DNA of 43,504 nucleotides, from assembly GCA_019634625.1 (NCBI GenBank), contig JAHCBA010000050.1:1-43504 (forward strand), written 5' to 3'. Positions 951 through 35,334 of this stretch are shown in pieces; position 1 is the first letter of the stretch, and every line of letters begins with the position of its first letter. The DNA is from Verrucomicrobiia bacterium (GTDB lineage: Bacteria; Verrucomicrobiota; Verrucomicrobiia; Limisphaerales; CAIMTB01). A program made the position numbers and the translations under genes. The notes under the pieces are model-generated. The model did no database searches. It was not told where the DNA came from and was given only the letters and a program-made list of their open reading frames with translations.

Positions 951-1132
951 GTTTGCCACGCCGTGCATCCCGAAGTTGTGGGGAGATGTGCGAGTTTCGC
1001 GATGCGTCGTCTCGGAGGGCCGAGTTCCACGAGGCCGCAGCGGAGTGGGGCAATGGGTTGAGGACTCGCGGAGCTCGTCCCTCCGATTCGCTGCCTCCTC
1101 ACCCACAACTCCGGGATGCACCGTTTGCCACG
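951..1132 (+). mobile_element. MITE-like element, copy A (159 bp, 963-1121) with 10-bp flanking direct repeats
   Basis: The element begins GTGCATCCCGAAGTTGTGGG (963-982) and ends with its inverted copy at 1102-1121 (19 of 20 matching). Inside, 1013-1034 pairs imperfectly with 1064-1085 (18 of 22), giving a nested hairpin. The 10-mer GTTTGCCACG stands immediately outside on both sides, at 951-960 and 1123-1132, consistent with a target-site duplication. There is no reading frame worth calling. It lies in the 437-bp gap between the acetyltransferase and the small membrane protein; the rest of that gap shows nothing recognisable. Confidence 0.85.
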
Positions 1133-4577: not shown

Positions 4578-4744
4578 GGGACGGGACGGTGCATCCCCGG
4601 GTTGTGGGTGAGGAGGCAGCGAATCAGAGCGTTCAATCCAAATCACCACCCCCTTTGCGGCCTCGTGGAACTCGGCCCTCCGATGCCACGCCTGGCGAAG
4701 CTCGCACCTCTCCCCACCCTTCCGGGCTGCACAGGGGACCGGAC
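4578..4744 (-). mobile_element. MITE-like element, copy B (decayed, about 147 bp, 4588-4734)
   Basis: Opposite orientation to copy A. Both ends remain recognisable (GGTGCATCCCC... and ...CCGGGCTGCAC), as does the outer GTGAGGAGGCAGCGAAT block and the GCGGCCTCGTGGAACTCGGC arm. The partner arm of the inner hairpin is lost, replaced by unrelated sequence at about 4625-4650, so the copy is degenerate. Flanks GGGACGGGAC (4578-4587) and GGGACCGGAC (4735-4744) match at 9 of 10 positions. It fills most of the gap upstream of release factor 3. Confidence 0.7.
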
Positions 4745-4847
4745 GGGGTTGGTGACGGAGCTTCCCCTGGAAGGCGGGAGTCGGTCATGGTGACGGGCCC
4801 GGGGGGCGACGCGAGGAGCGGACGGACGCGGGGTTGGAGAGGAACCT

Positions 4848-10481: not shown

Positions 10482-10510
10482 CGGAGGGGGGCGAAGGGGC
10501 AGACTCGGCG

Positions 10511-10598
10511 GACCGGGGAGCCGTTGGTTGACGGCTGAGAGTTCCGCCGCAGCGGGAGACCCGTTGAACCTGATCCGGCTGATACCGGCGGAGGGAGG
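10511..10598 (+). promoter_or_regulatory. TPP riboswitch (THI element) upstream of thiC
   Basis: The conserved core is plain: GGGGAGCC paired with GGCTGAGA in the first arm, then ACCCGTTGAACCTGATCCGG, then TGATACCGGCGGAGGGA. These match the thiamine-pyrophosphate aptamer consensus (CTGAGA; ACCxxTTGAACCTGATCxGG; AxTACCGGCGxAGGGA) almost base for base. It lies 30 bp after the kinase gene and ahead of thiC. Binding of TPP is expected to shut down thiC expression. The expression platform at 10599-10732 lacks an obvious T-rich terminator, so control of translation initiation is the more likely mode (inference). Confidence 0.97.
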
Positions 10599-10642
10599 CG
10601 GCCGCGACGGACGCGGGGCGCACTTTCCAAGGGGGTGGCTGA

Positions 10643-18537: not shown

Positions 18538-18719
18538 GGATGAGGGCGGTGCCTCCTGGAGTTGTGGGTTGAGGCGCGAACTTCGCGAAGCGTTGCTTCG
18601 GAAGGCTGAGTTCCACGAGGCCGCAAGGGGGTGGCGCGTTGGGTTGGGGGCTCGCGGAGCTCGTCCCTCCGATTCGCTGCCTCCTCACCCACAACTTCGG
18701 GATGCACCGGGATGACGGC
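18538..18719 (+). mobile_element. MITE-like element, copy C (18548-18709)
   Basis: Same orientation as copy A. The left end is worn (GGTGCCTCCTGGAGTTGTGG) but the right end ACAACTTCGGGATGCAC is intact, and the inner arms (TCGGAAGGCTGAGTTCCACG and GCTCGCGGAGCTCGTCCC) still pair. Flanks GGATGAGGGC (18538-18547) and GGATGACGGC (18710-18719) match at 9 of 10. It occupies the intergenic space between the divergent protease and oxidoreductase genes, so both promoters must lie in or beside it. Confidence 0.8.
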
Positions 18720-20174: not shown

Positions 20175-20353
20175 GTCCGGTCCCGTTCATCCCGGAGTTG
20201 TGGGTGAGGAGGCAGCGAATCGGAGGGACGAGCTCTGCGAGTCCTCAATCCATCGCTCCACACCGTTGCGGCCTCGTGGAACTCGGCCCTCCGAAGCGCC
20301 GCTTGGCGGAGTTCGCACCCCGCCCATAACGCAGGGATGCACCGAGTCCGGTC
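20173..20353 (-). mobile_element. MITE-like element, copy D (20183-20343) with perfect 10-bp direct repeats
   Basis: Opposite orientation to copy A. Ends are GTTCATCCCGGAGTTGTGGG (20185-20204) and CCCATAACGCAGGGATGCAC; the inner arms GGAGGGACGAGCTCTGCGAG and CTCGTGGAACTCGGCCCTCC pair well. GAGTCCGGTC is repeated exactly at 20173-20182 and 20344-20353. The left repeat overlaps the last two bases of the oxidoreductase stop codon, so the element went in directly behind that gene. Confidence 0.85.
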
Positions 20354-21870: not shown

Positions 21871-21958
21871 TGGTGCCGATGGCGGGACTTGAACCCGCAC
21901 GGCCGTTTCCGGCCAGGGGATTTTAAGTCCCCTGTGTCTGCCATTTCACCACATCGGC
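21871..21958 (-). tRNA. tRNA-Leu (anticodon TAA)
   Basis: Read on the minus strand, the molecule starts GCCGATG (21958-21952) and ends CATCGGC plus A and an encoded CCA (21871-21873), giving a 7-bp acceptor stem. The anticodon arm is GGGGA-CTTAAAA-TCCCC, with TAA in the loop. A long variable arm (GGCCG-GAAA-CGGCC) marks it as a class II tRNA, and the T arm GCGGGTTCAAGTCCCGC is canonical. All expected leucine features agree. Confidence 0.97.
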
Positions 21959-24668: not shown

Positions 24669-25589
24669 TCAAGGCCCGGTGGCGACGGGGAGGTGCTTCA
24701 TGGCGGCGTACTCCTTCCAGGAGCCTTCGTAGAGCCTGACGTTCGGATAGCCGGCAAGGTGCTTGAGGTAGAACCGCAGCAGGCTGCCTTCCCGGGAGGT
24801 CCCGCAATAGACAAGGATGTCCTTGTCCGGGGTGAGCCCTGCGGCTTCGAGTTCGGGCGCCATCTCGGAGGGCGGTCGGAACTTGTGGGTGTTGGCGTCG
24901 GTCATGACGCGGGCCCAGTGGAAATGGATGGCGCCGGGAATGTGGCCTTGGCGGGGCCAGAGGTCGTCCTCGCCGCGGAACTCGAGCGCCGGGCGGGCGT
25001 CCACCAGGACGACACCGGGACGATCCTTGAGGGACATCACCTCGTGCACGCTGACGGCGATGCCGCGGTTCATGCGGGCGGGAAGGCGTCCGCGCGGGGT
25101 GTCGGGGTAGTCCTGGGTGGTGGCGAAACGGGCGCGGTAGTCGGGCCAGCCGCCGTCGAGGATGCGGATGTCGCGGACGCCGAACTTTTCGAGGACATGG
25201 GCGACCATGGAGGCGCTGAGGATTTCGTCGCCGGTGCCGCCTTCGGCGTAGAGCACATGGGTGCGGTTGCGATCGACCCCGGCCCGGACCAGGAGATGGC
25301 GGGTCAGGTCGTCGGGGAGATACTGGACCGGCACGCCGCGGTCGGTGCCGCGCAGGGTGTCGAAGTTGATGTGGTGGGCGGTGGGGAGGTGGGCGCGGAT
25401 GTAGTCCTTGTAGCCGCCGCGGGTGTCGAGGACGAGGGGGCGGGATCCGGGATCGGCGTGGTGAATGAGGGTGTGGACCTCTTGCGGGGAGATGAGGCCG
25501 ATCTGCGCTGGGGCCCGGGCGGCAAGGAGCAGGGCGGAGATGGATAGCGCCAGCGGAGCGCAGATGGGGATGGATCGGTGTGGGTGCAT
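24669..25589 (-). CDS. Exported two-domain rhodanese (SseA-type sulfurtransferase)
   Basis: 306 residues. The N-terminus (PLALSISALLLAARAPAQ) is a signal peptide ending in AxA, so the protein should be periplasmic. Two rhodanese domains follow: an inactive N-terminal one (VLDTRGGYKDYIRAHLPTAHHI) and a C-terminal one with LVDARPALEFRGEDD and the active-site loop beginning at C262, YCGTSREGS. The loop differs from the CGSGVTA of mercaptopyruvate enzymes, and the arginine in CxxxR resembles thiosulfate-type loops. It starts 17 bp after pstB on the same strand and is likely the last gene of the pst transcript, an unusual partner for phosphate uptake. Confidence 0.88.
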   Translation of the reverse strand: MHPHRSIPICAPLALSISALLLAARAPAQIGLISPQEVHTLIHHADPGSRPLVLDTRGGYKDYIRAHLPTAHHINFDTLRGTDRGVPVQYLPDDLTRHLLVRAGVDRNRTHVLYAEGGTGDEILSASMVAHVLEKFGVRDIRILDGGWPDYRARFATTQDYPDTPRGRLPARMNRGIAVSVHEVMSLKDRPGVVLVDARPALEFRGEDDLWPRQGHIPGAIHFHWARVMTDANTHKFRPPSEMAPELEAAGLTPDKDILVYCGTSREGSLLRFYLKHLAGYPNVRLYEGSWKEYAAMKHLPVATGP

Positions 25590-25606: not shown

Positions 25607-26389
25607 TCAGTCTTCGGTTGGGTTGGAGTGGAGTTGGAAGGGAACGGGGGTGTCGTCGGGGTCCGGGGGAACGGAGTGGACCAGGGTGAGTTCGCCGGCG
25701 CCGTCGCGGGGTTCGAGGAGGGCGATGCGGTCGGCGAGGCGCCGGGCCTGGGGATGGTTGTGGGTGACGAGGAGGATGGCGCGGGTTTGCCGGAGGTGAC
25801 GGATCAGGGATTCGATGGCGTCGGTCGAGGCGGGATCGAGGGCGCTGGTGGGTTCGTCGAGGAGGAGGACCTCGGGTTCGACCGCGAGGGTGCGGGCGAG
25901 GCAGAGGCGCTGTTGCTGTCCGACGGAAAGGTGGAGGGCGGAGTCGTCGAGGCGGTCCTTTACCTCGTTCCAGAGGTGGGCTTCCTGGAGGGCGCGTTCG
26001 AGCCAGTAGGCGGCGTCGGCGCGGGAAAGTCGGACGAGATGGCGGCGTCCGAAGAGGACATTGCGGCGGATTGTGGTCGGGAAGACGACGGGTTGCTGGA
26101 AGATCATGCCCAGGCGGGCCCTGAGGTGGTTGACGTCGAGGGATGGGTCCCGGACCGGGCGGCCACGCCAGAGGATTTCCCCCTCGACTTGGAGGGTCGG
26201 GGTGAGGTCGATGAGGCGGTTGAGGCAGCGGAGGAGGGTGCTTTTGCCGGCGCCGGAAGGACCGAGGATGGCCAGGATTTCCCGTTCGCCGAGGCGCACT
26301 TGAATGTCGCGAAGGACGACGCGATCGCCGGCCCGGACGTGAAGTCTGCGCGTTTCGATCACCGCAGGGGCGGGGGTGGGGTCAGTCAT
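25607..26389 (-). CDS. pstB: Phosphate ABC transporter ATP-binding protein
   Basis: 260 residues from the ATG at 26389, which overlaps the pstA end by 8 bp (ATGACTGA). It powers phosphate import through PstC-PstA. Walker A is GPSGAGKST (43-51), the Q-loop IFQQPVVFP, Walker B VLLLDEPTSALDP, and the H-loop VTHNH. The signature, normally LSGGQ, here reads LSVGQQQ with valine at 156. This is rare at a position that contacts ATP, yet the following QQRLCLAR block is normal PstB. A longer frame upstream lies inside pstA and is rejected. No phoU gene is adjacent in the window. Confidence 0.93.
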   Translation of the reverse strand: MTDPTPAPAVIETRRLHVRAGDRVVLRDIQVRLGEREILAILGPSGAGKSTLLRCLNRLIDLTPTLQVEGEILWRGRPVRDPSLDVNHLRARLGMIFQQPVVFPTTIRRNVLFGRRHLVRLSRADAAYWLERALQEAHLWNEVKDRLDDSALHLSVGQQQRLCLARTLAVEPEVLLLDEPTSALDPASTDAIESLIRHLRQTRAILLVTHNHPQARRLADRIALLEPRDGAGELTLVHSVPPDPDDTPVPFQLHSNPTED

Positions 26390-27233
26390 GACGGGCCTCC
26401 TCATGGGCCCGGAGCCGGGCGGGAAGGGTGACGAGGCTGAGGCTGGCGACGATGGCCAGAAGGACGAGAGCCGCGGTCCAGACGCGGGCGGCGGCATCGG
26501 GATTGTAGGTGTCCTGGGCCAGGACGAAGATGTGGTAGGGCAGGGTGAGAACCGGGTTGTCGCGGATGCCGTTGGGGAGTGTGGCTCCGGCGAAGACGGT
26601 GGCTGTGAACAGGATGGGGGCCGTCTCGCCGGCGGCGCGGGCGAGTCCGAGGAGGGAACCGGTGAGGAGACCGCCGATGCATTGCGGGAGGATGACCGAG
26701 CGGACCACTTGGGAGGGGCGGAGTCCGAGTGCGGCGGCGGAATCGATCCTGGCCTGGGGCAGGGCCTGGATGCGGGTGGCAAGGGAGACGGCCACGGTGG
26801 GGAGCATCATGAGACCGAGGAGGAGGCCTCCGATCAGCCAGGATTTTCCCCAGCCGAGGAAGTGGACGAACACCAGGAGTCCGAAGAGACCGAAGAGGAT
26901 CGAAGGCACGGCATTGAGCAGTGAGAGGAAGGTGGTAAGGCGGCGGCGGGCGGATTCACGGCGCAGATAGACCGCCTGGGTGAGGGCGAGGCCGGTGGCG
27001 ATGGGCGTGCAGACGGCGAGGGCGGTGACGAGGAGAATGAGCGTGCCGAGAATGTTGTGCCGGACGCCACCGGCGGCGCCGGCCCGCTGCATGGGTTCGG
27101 AAAGGAAGGACCAGGAGAATGCGGGGAGACCGCGGGTGACGATGGCAAGGATGAGAAAGGCGAGGATGCCAAGGGCGATGAAGGCGCATAGGGCGGTGCC
27201 CCAGGTGAGGGTGCGGTCAAGGGCGCGGCGCAT
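26382..27233 (-). CDS. pstA: Phosphate ABC transporter permease PstA
   Basis: 283 residues, about six membrane spans (near 15-37, 70-92, 120-140, 145-165, 195-215 and 255-275). The cytoplasmic loop that docks on PstB reads AAALGLRPSQVVRSVILPQCIGGLLTGSLLGLARAAGETAPI, in which the EAA-type and AxGETAP motifs are diagnostic of PstA (segments ALGLRPSQVV and ARAAGETAPI). The ATG at 27233 overlaps the pstC end by 17 bp, and its own end overlaps pstB, so the three are translationally linked. The open frame extends 25 codons further upstream, into pstC; that extension is low-complexity and unlikely. Confidence 0.94.
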   Translation of the reverse strand: MRRALDRTLTWGTALCAFIALGILAFLILAIVTRGLPAFSWSFLSEPMQRAGAAGGVRHNILGTLILLVTALAVCTPIATGLALTQAVYLRRESARRRLTTFLSLLNAVPSILFGLFGLLVFVHFLGWGKSWLIGGLLLGLMMLPTVAVSLATRIQALPQARIDSAAALGLRPSQVVRSVILPQCIGGLLTGSLLGLARAAGETAPILFTATVFAGATLPNGIRDNPVLTLPYHIFVLAQDTYNPDAAARVWTAALVLLAIVASLSLVTLPARLRAHEEARHD

Positions 27234-28143
27234 GGTGGGAGGAGGGCCGCAGGAGGCGGGTGGCGAGGAGGGTGAGGACGGTGACGAGCAGGAGGGTGAT
27301 GAGGCCAAGGCCCATCATGGCGGCCCAGTGGAGCGGGTCGCCGTAGGCAAGATGGACCTCGGCGCCGACCAGTTTGCTGCCGAGCGTCTGTCCTGCTTCG
27401 GTGAGGGGACGAAGGGAGAGGAGGGAGGCCGGCCATTGGTTGTCCTGGCGGCCGACGACGAGGAAGACCGCGATGCCCTCGCCGAAGGCGCGGCCGAGCG
27501 CGAGCAGCACGGCGGCGACGATGCCACGGCGGGCCTCGGGAAGGCAGACCCGCAGGATGGTTTCGGCACGGGTGAGGCCGAGGGCCCGGGCGGCGCGGCG
27601 GTGGGCGGCGGGGACCGCACGCAGGGCGTCGTCCGCCAGGGTGGCGAAGGTCGGGAGGATCATCACCGCGAGAAGGATCCCTGCGGTGAGGAGGGTGTCC
27701 CCGCTGAGGGGGTCGAACGGGGCGAGGAGACGGACGACCCATTCCCGCAGGAAGAGGATCCCGAGCAGGCCATAGACGACCGAGGGGATTCCGGCGAGGA
27801 GTTCGAGGGCTGCCTTGAGGGGCATCCGGGAGCGGGAAGGGGCGATTTCGGCCAGGAAGAGGGCGGTTCCAAGACCGATGGGGACGGCCAGCGCCAAGGC
27901 GACGGCCGAGACGGCGAGGGTGCCGTAGATCATGGCGGCCGCGCCGAATTCCTGCTGCCGATGGAACCAGCGGGCGTCGGTGAGATAGCCCCAACCGGAA
28001 TGGCGCAGGACGGGGACCGTTTCCCAAAGGAACAGGCCGAGCAGGGCGAGCGCGAAGCCGACGGCCAGAAGGGTGCAGGCGAGGCTGGCCGACATGGTCC
28101 AGCTCCATCGGGGACGGGGATGCCGTGGGGCGAGGGGAATCAC
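27217..28143 (-). CDS. pstC: Phosphate ABC transporter permease PstC
   Basis: 308 residues from the GTG at 28143; the ATG at 28095 (MSASLACTLL) would give 292 residues and is a real alternative. PstC is the other half of the phosphate channel. The features are the N-terminal span followed by FGAAAMIYGTLAVSAVAL, the family's PSVVYGLLGILFL segment, and the coupling loop RAARALGLTRAETILRVCLP with ALGRAFGEGIAVFLVVG. About six spans are predicted. The gene is separated from pstS by 260 bp carrying a double-core copy of the repeat, which may lower read-through from pstS. Confidence 0.93.
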   Translation of the reverse strand: MIPLAPRHPRPRWSWTMSASLACTLLAVGFALALLGLFLWETVPVLRHSGWGYLTDARWFHRQQEFGAAAMIYGTLAVSAVALALAVPIGLGTALFLAEIAPSRSRMPLKAALELLAGIPSVVYGLLGILFLREWVVRLLAPFDPLSGDTLLTAGILLAVMILPTFATLADDALRAVPAAHRRAARALGLTRAETILRVCLPEARRGIVAAVLLALGRAFGEGIAVFLVVGRQDNQWPASLLSLRPLTEAGQTLGSKLVGAEVHLAYGDPLHWAAMMGLGLITLLLVTVLTLLATRLLRPSSHHAPRP

Positions 28144-28172
28144 AAGGCGGATGCGGACGGAGCGGTGACGTT

Positions 28173-28395
28173 GGAGGGGCGGGTTCTGGGAACGCGGCGT
28201 TGTGGGATCGGAGGGCCGAGTTCCACGAGGCCGCAGGGGAATGAAGCGATGGGATGAGGACTCGCGGAGCTCGTCCCTCCGAAGGTGAAGCTGGGTTGTG
28301 AAATCGGAGGGCCGAGTTCCACGAGGCTGCGGGGGAATGGAGCGATGGGATGAGGACTCGCGGAGCTTGTCCCTCCGGAGGGTTGGGAGGGGCGG
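28173..28395 (+). mobile_element. MITE-like element, copy E: tandem double core inside the pst operon
   Basis: Two inner-hairpin cores, 28209-28282 and 28305-28377, stand in tandem in copy-A orientation. Each pairs CGGAGGGCCGAGTTCCACG with a CGGAGCTCGTCCCTCCG-type arm. Only a trace of the outer end remains (GGCGTTGTGGGA at about 28195). GGAGGGGCGG appears at 28173-28182 and 28386-28395, consistent with duplication of the target, although the G-rich sequence weakens this. The location between pstS and pstC recalls REP hairpins that stabilise upstream mRNA in transporter operons. Confidence 0.75.
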
Positions 28396-28403
28396 CGCAT
28401 GGG

Positions 28404-29303
28404 TCAGGGAGCGGGCGGGGGCGCCGGTTGATAACCGTGTCGGCGGACGATGGCCTGGCCGCGGTCGCTGAGGAGCAGATCGACGAGTTCGCGGGCGGCG
28501 CCTGACGGCTCGCCATCGGTGAGGAGGTAGAGGGAGCGGCTGAGCGGGTAGCGGCCGGCAGTGAGATCCGCGGGTGTAGGATGCACGACGGTGTCGGGTT
28601 CGAGGCGGAGGCCGAGGGCGAAGGTTGTGGCGTTGTCGGTCCAGGAGGCGGAGAGCGGGGCGATGGCGCCGCGGGTGGAGGCGACCTTGGCACGGGCCTC
28701 TTCGTTGCCGCCGACCTCGGGGAAACTGACGGGAGGCGCGTGGCGGGCATCGCCGTAAAGCCAGTGCACGAAGATCTCCCAGGTGCCGCGGCCGGGTTCC
28801 TTGTTGAAGAAGGCGATGCGGCGGTCGGGGCCTCCCAAGAGGTCCCAGTTGCGAAAGGTGCCCTCGTAGATGCCGCGCGCCTGATCGCGGGTCAGGCTTC
28901 GAACGCCGCCGTCCCAGACGTCGCGCGAGACCACCAGGGCGACGGCATCCACGCCGATCACCGTTTCATGGAAGCGCACCTGCGGGAACCGGGTGCGATC
29001 GGTGTCGGTGAGCGGTTTGGAAGACATGCCGACATGCGCACGTCCGTCACCGAGCAGGGCGATCCCGCCGGCGCTCCCGCCCTGGGTGTCGATGACGATG
29101 CGCAGGCCGCGTTCCCGGCGGAGGATCTCGGCCGCCTCGGCGACGGGCAGATTGACTGTGGTGGAACCGTTGACGCGGAGCACTTCAGATCCAAGTCCAC
29201 GGGGAGTCGGAAGGAAGGTCAGCAGGAGCGTCAGCAGGAGGCATGGGCTGGCGACCGGGCAGAGGCGAGGAAGCGCGGCTGCTGAAGGCCATGGGCAAAA
29301 CAC
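28404..29303 (-). CDS. pstS: Phosphate-binding periplasmic protein PstS
   Basis: 299 residues from the GTG at 29303; GTG 29324 is an alternative. The longer frame overlaps the antitoxin gene on the other strand and lacks a signal sequence. The chosen start gives a signal peptide (ASPCLLLTLLLTFLPTPRGLGS). The mature protein opens LRVNGSTTVNLPVAEAAE, the phosphate-loop region, followed by DTQGGSAGGIALLGDGRAHVGMSSKPL, then GVDAVALVVS and FFNKEPGRGTWEIF, all normal for PBP_like_2 phosphate binders. It captures phosphate outside the inner membrane and hands it to PstCA. As the first gene it should carry the promoter (Pho-type control is likely, but no clear Pho box was found). Confidence 0.9.
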   Translation of the reverse strand: MFCPWPSAAALPRLCPVASPCLLLTLLLTFLPTPRGLGSEVLRVNGSTTVNLPVAEAAEILRRERGLRIVIDTQGGSAGGIALLGDGRAHVGMSSKPLTDTDRTRFPQVRFHETVIGVDAVALVVSRDVWDGGVRSLTRDQARGIYEGTFRNWDLLGGPDRRIAFFNKEPGRGTWEIFVHWLYGDARHAPPVSFPEVGGNEEARAKVASTRGAIAPLSASWTDNATTFALGLRLEPDTVVHPTPADLTAGRYPLSRSLYLLTDGEPSGAARELVDLLLSDRGQAIVRRHGYQPAPPPAP

Positions 29304-29707: not shown

Positions 29708-29976
29708 GGGGCAAGATAAGGGCCAGACTACATAAAGTCTTATTTGTTGACTCGGATAGCGGCTCAAGAAGTCCAATTTCGAGATAAAATAGTAGGTCAG
29801 GCGCTATACTGTTGACGTTAATTTAATTGTTGACTCGGCTAAAATAATTAATGCGTCAGGCGCAATACCGTTGACGATAATAGTAAGGCAGGCGTTGTAC
29901 TGTTGACGGAACGGAATGCTTTCGGTCCGGTGATTCCCGATTGGCCGGGGGGGTGGATGGGCGCACGCTGCCGGGC
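29708..29976. repeat. AT-rich island with three copies of a GTCAGGCG...GTTGACG motif
   Basis: Three 22-bp units start at 29796, 29855 and 29887, each reading GTCAGGCG or GGCAGGCG, then a variable 7-base middle, then GTTGACG. TTGTTGACTCGG also occurs twice (near 29746 and 29828). The base composition is far more AT-rich than the rest of the window and no gene is supported here. In reverse complement the motif (CGTCAAC...CGCCTGAC) resembles those at 122-203 and 35163-35183. Confidence 0.6.
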
Positions 29977-34015: not shown

Positions 34016-34200
34016 GGGTGGCTAGTCGGTGCATCCCGGCGTTGTGGGTGAGGAGGCAGCGGATCGGAGGGACGAGCTCCGCGACTCCTCAATCCATTGC
34101 ACCACTCCGCTGCGGCCTCGTGGAACTCGGCCCTCCGAGGCGACGCTTCGCGAAATTCGCACCTGTCCCCACAACTTCGGGATGCACGGGTGGCTCGTTG
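34016..34200 (-). mobile_element. MITE-like element, copy F (159 bp, 34029-34187) with 13-bp flanking repeats
   Basis: Opposite orientation to copy A and well preserved. Ends are GTGCATCCCGGCGTTGTGGG (34029-34048) and CCCACAACTTCGGGATGCAC (34168-34187), pairing at 18 of 20. The inner arms GGAGGGACGAGCTCCGCGA and CTCGTGGAACTCGGCCCTCC pair. GGGTGGCTAGTCG (34016-34028) and GGGTGGCTCGTTG (34188-34200) touch both ends exactly and match at 11 of 13. It separates the divergent zwf and amidase genes. Confidence 0.85.
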
Positions 34201-35044: not shown

Positions 35045-35334
35045 GGTCGAAGGTGGACGGAGGGACAGGGCTGCAAAAATATTAGGTCAGGCGTTAAGTT
35101 GCGGACGGCGCGATCCTGCCGGCCTCCCTTGAAATCCCATTTGGCCACTGCGTGGGGGGATGGGGTCAACAGTAATATGCCGGTCTCTTTGTTGATTCAG
35201 TCAACAATTGGGTGTCGGTCGTATTATTATTACGGGGATGACCAAGTCACGGGGGGCAACAAAATAATAATAATGGAGTCAACAATTGGGTGTTGGTCGC
35301 ATTATCCCGATTCGCGATTTGCCCTCAGTTTCGT
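35045..35334. repeat. AT-rich island with a duplicated 29-bp unit and nested palindromes
   Basis: The 29-bp unit AGTCAACAATTGGGTG... occurs at 35199-35227 and 35277-35305 with two differences. The first copy overlaps a perfect palindrome TTGTTGA-TTCAG-TCAACAA (35189-35207). ATTATTATTA (35223-35232) faces TAATAATAAT (35265-35274), enclosing TGACCAAGTCA. GGGTCAACAGTAATATGCCG at about 35163 and TAGGTCAGGCG at about 35092 (reversed) match the motifs in the other two AT-rich regions. No gene is supported here. Confidence 0.6.

Follow-up and report, generated by a model that had tools for sequence, protein, structure and literature searches.

The repeat that separates the phosphate-binding protein gene pstS from the phosphate permease gene pstC in this verrucomicrobial genome is, judging from its sequence, very probably a two-unit tandem REPIN array of the BIME-2-like kind, belonging to a family that is presumably mobilised by a TnpA-REP-like transposase. 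The elements of the locus are listed below by their positions in the window, i.e. the whole stretch of 43,504 nt that was analysed.

28404..29303, minus strand: pstS, encoding the phosphate-binding protein; GTG at 29303 taken as start from the sequence, with uncertainty
27217..28143, minus strand: pstC, encoding a phosphate permease that starts at GTG 28143 or ATG 28095
26382..27308, minus strand: pstA, encoding a phosphate permease further downstream in the cluster; the limits are those of the ORF, and the start is uncertain
25607..26389, minus strand: pstB-like ATPase; closest to PstB TIGR00972, with a score under the cut-off of that family
28208..28377, strand not assigned: two-unit tandem REPIN array between pstS and pstC
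28209..28232, plus strand: REP-B of unit 1, CGGAGGGCCGAGTTCCACGAGGCC
28258..28281, minus strand: REP-A of unit 1, CGGAGGGACGAGCTCCGCGAGTCC on the minus strand
28282..28304, plus strand: linker joining the two units, typical of the tandem subfamily: AAGGTGAAGCTGGGTTGTGAAAT (in the family, AAGGGTGAAGCGGGGTGGTGAAAT), common to many unlinked tandem loci
28305..28328, plus strand: REP-B of unit 2, one substitution (last base)
28354..28377, minus strand: REP-A of unit 2, with GGACAAG replacing GGACGAG (one substitution)

The original prediction described two inner cores in tandem, 96 bp apart, placed between the binding-protein gene and the permease genes, and both parts of this description proved accurate. 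The cores occupy 28208-28282 and 28304-28377, with a start-to-start distance of 96 bp and 90% identity over 92 nt, and they fill part of the 260 nt that separate the pstS stop at 28404 from the earliest potential start of pstC at 28143 (the untranslated stretch amounts to 260-308 nt). Protein family searches place the pstC product in TIGR02138 (E 1e-69, above the cut-off) and match PstS to PF12849 (E 2e-27) and TIGR02136 (E 2e-35, but below the cut-off), while the best family of the pstA product, TIGR00974, is hit just below its cut-off. Each unit of the array is an inverted repeat of ~74 nt made of an opposed REP-B and REP-A, and each REP has a GGAG tag and a short stem, in which a bulge of two mismatches is conserved. 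Near 28172 there may be another, highly degenerate REP-like stretch (a weak match, with five mismatches allowed). An Rfam search found no RNA family at the array, and promoter and terminator scans of the pstS-pstC gap returned nothing.

Searching the whole genome (6.74 Mb in 88 contigs), we found 960 REP half-sites, as opposed to none with a reversed control pattern, and dozens of copies of the core at 85-100% identity; the suggestion that the gap holds a copy of a mobile element is borne out. One doublet is formed by a 24-nt REP-B and a 24-nt REP-A facing each other head-to-head 49 nt apart, an arrangement shared by nearly all doublets in a 0.82-Mb sample. The context of the REPs was assessed in a 1.6-Mb sample (the window and contigs C1-C6, of which C4 and C6 were covered partially), using gene calls from a simple codon-usage caller and no standard annotator: 134 of 144 REP clusters are intergenic, and most of the ten that fall inside called genes consist of a single REP with a loose match. 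The family thus shows what is expected of REPINs and BIMEs, namely two inverted REP stems at a fixed spacing, a high copy number with a mostly intergenic distribution, stem-loop REPs in which complementarity is kept between subtypes, and a RAYT gene (here a putative cognate) flanked by the same REPs. What counts against a plain assignment is the tag, recorded as GGAG or CGGA and sometimes GGAA, as opposed to the GT[AG]G (GTAG or GTGG) that marks the canonical REP superfamily (PMC6006769), and for this reason we file the pst element as a REPIN/BIME-2-like variant.

The candidate transposase is encoded on contig C31 (17148-17648) by a gene of 501 nt with a 166-aa product, which interrupts the largest REP array of the genome and is directly flanked by REP units on both sides. 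The protein matches the E. coli TnpA-REP structure 4er8 (E 1.2e-6) and carries the motifs HMH, YVMENP (Y-x3-NP) and WQ, and so the HUH motif plus Y-x3-NP signature of TnpA-REP proteins (PMC6006769). Its match to the NCBIfam model REP_Tyr_transpos (NF047646) has an E-value of 3.9e-20; since the score of 72.2 bits stays just below the cut-off of 80, a score threshold rather than a biological feature, we call the protein TnpA-REP-like, and the shortfall weighs somewhat against the REPIN reading. No other strong TnpA-REP match occurs in the genome, the one further match being weak and partial. From its sequence and position, the C31 protein is probably the enzyme that mobilises the REPIN family. 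A further point against is that TnpA-REP homologues, which 41 of 58 relatives possess, have no GGAG REP close beside them at the loci examined. Most other Y1 transposase matches of the genome were rejected as REP partners, as they apparently belong to a different multi-copy family with REPs near few of the loci examined; the C31 gene alone fits. One copy of that family (L026 1369-2436, on C5) holds a 355-aa ORF with NHFH and YIDLNP motifs and resembles the long, REP-less Y1 subclass 2.3 (PMC6006769); many copies of the family lie at contig ends.

The two REP subtypes themselves provide a hint as to what is conserved. REP-A and REP-B differ at four of 24 positions, and these make up two compensated base pairs within the stem of the single REP (A-T/C-G and C-G/T-A), while the two adjacent GA/AG mismatches in mid-stem are conserved in both. 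In the long hairpin that could form between the two REPs of a doublet, these four positions show a mismatch or a G-U pair in 83 to 93 of 94 doublets. The pattern speaks more for selection on the individual REP stem than on the long RNA hairpin, and the single stem is the expected substrate of a single-strand transposase; a comparable stem bulge and tag are required by the E. coli TnpA-REP (PMC8266576). The A/B covariation essentially reflects one divergence and so counts as few independent events, which limits its value for the REPIN reading. REP doublets of the same design, some of them A/A, occur in other families of what is presumably the same order, Verrucomicrobiales, and a doublet at locus L066 exhibits a further pair combination. 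We envisage that the C31 protein, as a Y1 (HUH) transposase, would recognise each REP as a single-stranded stem by its GA/AG bulge and GGAG tag, and that it may have dispersed and multiplied the units, a process in which one of them would have reached the pstS-pstC junction.

Most family copies have a long form of ~160 nt, in which outer inverted repeats (GTGCATCCCGGAGTTGTGGG) surround the doublet, a feature that a plain REPIN model leaves unexplained. In the tandem form, doublets are joined by a linker of 23-24 nt and lack outer ends. An exact-pattern search recovered 49 A-linker-B junctions genome-wide, nearly all with one and the same linker and 12 of them within 20 kb on C31, and the tandem copy number varies by locus. 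The pst copy had been described as one that lost most of its outer ends, i.e. as a degraded ~160-nt element whose core was duplicated locally. The REP-A/REP-B core is indeed common to the long form, but the linker of the pst copy is that of the genome-wide tandem subfamily, recurring at many unlinked loci, and no trace of an outer inverted repeat is found beside it: the similarity of the flanks (28173-28207 and 28378-28412) to long-element arms or the linker is no better than that of shuffled sequence. Because the copy is of the tandem form with the shared linker, we reject its derivation by end-trimming, which must be regarded as very improbable. Replication slippage or recombination, acting without a transposase, might instead have multiplied the doublets. 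The variation in copy number from locus to locus is in keeping with such a process, as it would be with any tandem array, but the presence of one linker at many unlinked loci implies that what disperses is a module exceeding a single doublet in length, and we therefore deem this origin of the tandem copies unlikely, while noting that dispersal of the linker module is compatible with later local changes in copy number.

Several observations concern the long form itself. Four copies in the window (960-1123, 18546-18709, 20185-20341 and 34027-34189) show its nested structure, unlike that of a plain REPIN, and a degenerate or rearranged copy at 4582-4748 retains one outer repeat and a single REP. 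No autonomous partner of the outer inverted repeats was found: 149 of 156 such repeats have REPs nearby, and the few that stand alone showed no partner. A different short repeat, GAGTACCGCCCTTCGGGCTGAGTACGAG or a close variant, adjoins several tandem REPIN arrays (L118, L120, L121 and L124).

The pstS-pstC junction was compared in relatives, the nearest named ones being mostly Verrucomicrobiales, which suggests that the genome belongs to that order. In ten orthologous pst operons the distance from the pstS stop to the pstC start mostly ranges from a few to ~90 nt, depending on the start chosen, and no REP is present at the junction in any of the ten. As the orthologous junctions are mostly short and REP-free, we interpret the pst array as an insertion; given PstC identities of only ~54-67%, the relatives document the absence of the REP within the order rather than a recent empty site. 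A rhodanese-type gene lies between pstS and pstC in two relatives (L102 2899-3915 and L106 2921-3859). In the window, a rhodanese-type sulfurtransferase gene (24669-25589) adjoins the pst genes downstream of pstB.

Whether the array matters for expression of the pst genes is a separate question. In E. coli, REPs in the malE-malF gap have been shown experimentally to stabilise mRNA, so that the binding protein is made in excess over the permease. The pst array resembles that case in its location, with REP hairpins separating the gene of a binding protein from those of its permease; for malE-malF stabilisation is an experimental result, whereas the pst array is known from sequence and bears no sign of selection for such a role. 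It had been proposed that the array was co-opted for the same purpose, with its hairpins protecting pstS mRNA from 3' exonucleases. Consistent with this are the position of the array after pstS in a co-directional gene cluster, the lack of a terminator-like T run in the gap, and the predicted fold of the minus-strand gap RNA (-78.5 kcal/mol, z -2.97), along with predicted single hairpins of the units or their junction at -28.7 to -38.4 kcal/mol. However, REPs that stabilise mRNA should prefer gene 3' ends to divergent gaps, and the family as a whole lacks such an orientation preference: the 134 intergenic clusters fall into 42 divergent, 75 co-directional and 17 convergent gaps, against 40.6, 75.6 and 17.8 expected from intergenic length, and tandem arrays also occur between divergent genes. 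In co-directional gaps, REPs seemed to sit closer to the upstream stop (58 of 75), but with conservatively chosen starts the count fell to 44 of 75 (p 0.17), and the trend was dropped. Among 16 ABC-permease matches in the genome, an array is found only at the two in the pst cluster of the window; a few other permease loci have stray single REPs, and a second pst-like locus is without an array. In addition, the GGACAAG substitution in REP-A of unit 2 weakens the long inter-REP hairpin of that unit, and the differences between REP-A and REP-B sacrifice the long hairpin. The proposed stabiliser role is accordingly unsupported, and we find it improbable.

The array might alternatively act as a Rho-dependent attenuator or polarity element, breaking a tight pstS-pstC junction and lowering expression of pstC-pstA-pstB. 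REPs have been tied to Rho-dependent termination (PMC2817692), and the 260-308 untranslated nucleotides here stand against mostly tight orthologous junctions, but such an effect may equally be a neutral side effect of the insertion, and this reading seems to us quite unlikely. Still more doubtful, if slightly, than the stabiliser role is a combined scenario in which a GGAG REPIN family disperses a linker-conserved tandem module and the pst copy was retained for setting the PstS-to-permease ratio. Returning to the array as a transposase-dispersed REPIN, an effect on pst mRNA is plausible from the modelled folds, as the hairpins of about -36 to -38 kcal/mol that it can form in the pst transcript may incidentally slow 3' exonucleases or disturb pstS/pstC coupling; nothing found shows selection for an RNA effect. 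With about 1000 half-sites scattered across intergenic space, the position in the pst cluster alone is weak evidence of function.

The likening to E. coli REPs in the original prediction holds in kind, as the family has bulged stems, inverted doublets, BIME-like tandem arrays and a TnpA-REP relative in its main array. Among the closest parallels is BIME-2 of E. coli (Y/Z2 REPs and TnpA-REP; PMC2817692, PMC8266576), which shares two REP subtypes alternating in inverted orientation, tandem units, a two-mismatch mid-stem bulge, intergenic sites and a tnpA-REP-type gene flanked by arrays; it differs in its GTAG tag as opposed to GGAG and in its phylum, in that cleavage activity of the C31 protein is putative, and in that most copies here carry extra outer inverted repeats. 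The REPINs and RAYTs of Pseudomonas fluorescens SBW25 (PMC3116915) likewise have hairpin REP doublets as the unit, tandem clusters, and clusters beside RAYT genes, whereas REP sequence and tag differ, the units here are heterodimeric (B/A), and the transposase gene lies within the longest array. Abundant REP dimers have been described from the same phylum, Verrucomicrobia, in Opitutus terrae (PMC3733652), with which our family is likened by description, and whose REPs bear a GTAG or GTGG tag instead of GGAG. What we describe is hence a REPIN/RAYT system whose tag departs from the standard, from an order with few accounts of REPs so far. Its transposase gene resides within its own largest array, and its conserved linker shows that multi-REP modules disperse as such, so that the system offers a test of how tandem REPIN arrays form, a question left open by the REP papers cited here.

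Two other features of the window may be mentioned. A 30-nt repeat, AATAGTAGGTCAGGCGCTATACTGTTGACG, and its variants occur in four copies (29788-29908 and 35078-35107), three of which cluster upstream of pstS. Rfam also identified a TPP riboswitch and a tRNA, both ordinary, at 10504-10613 and 21874-21958.
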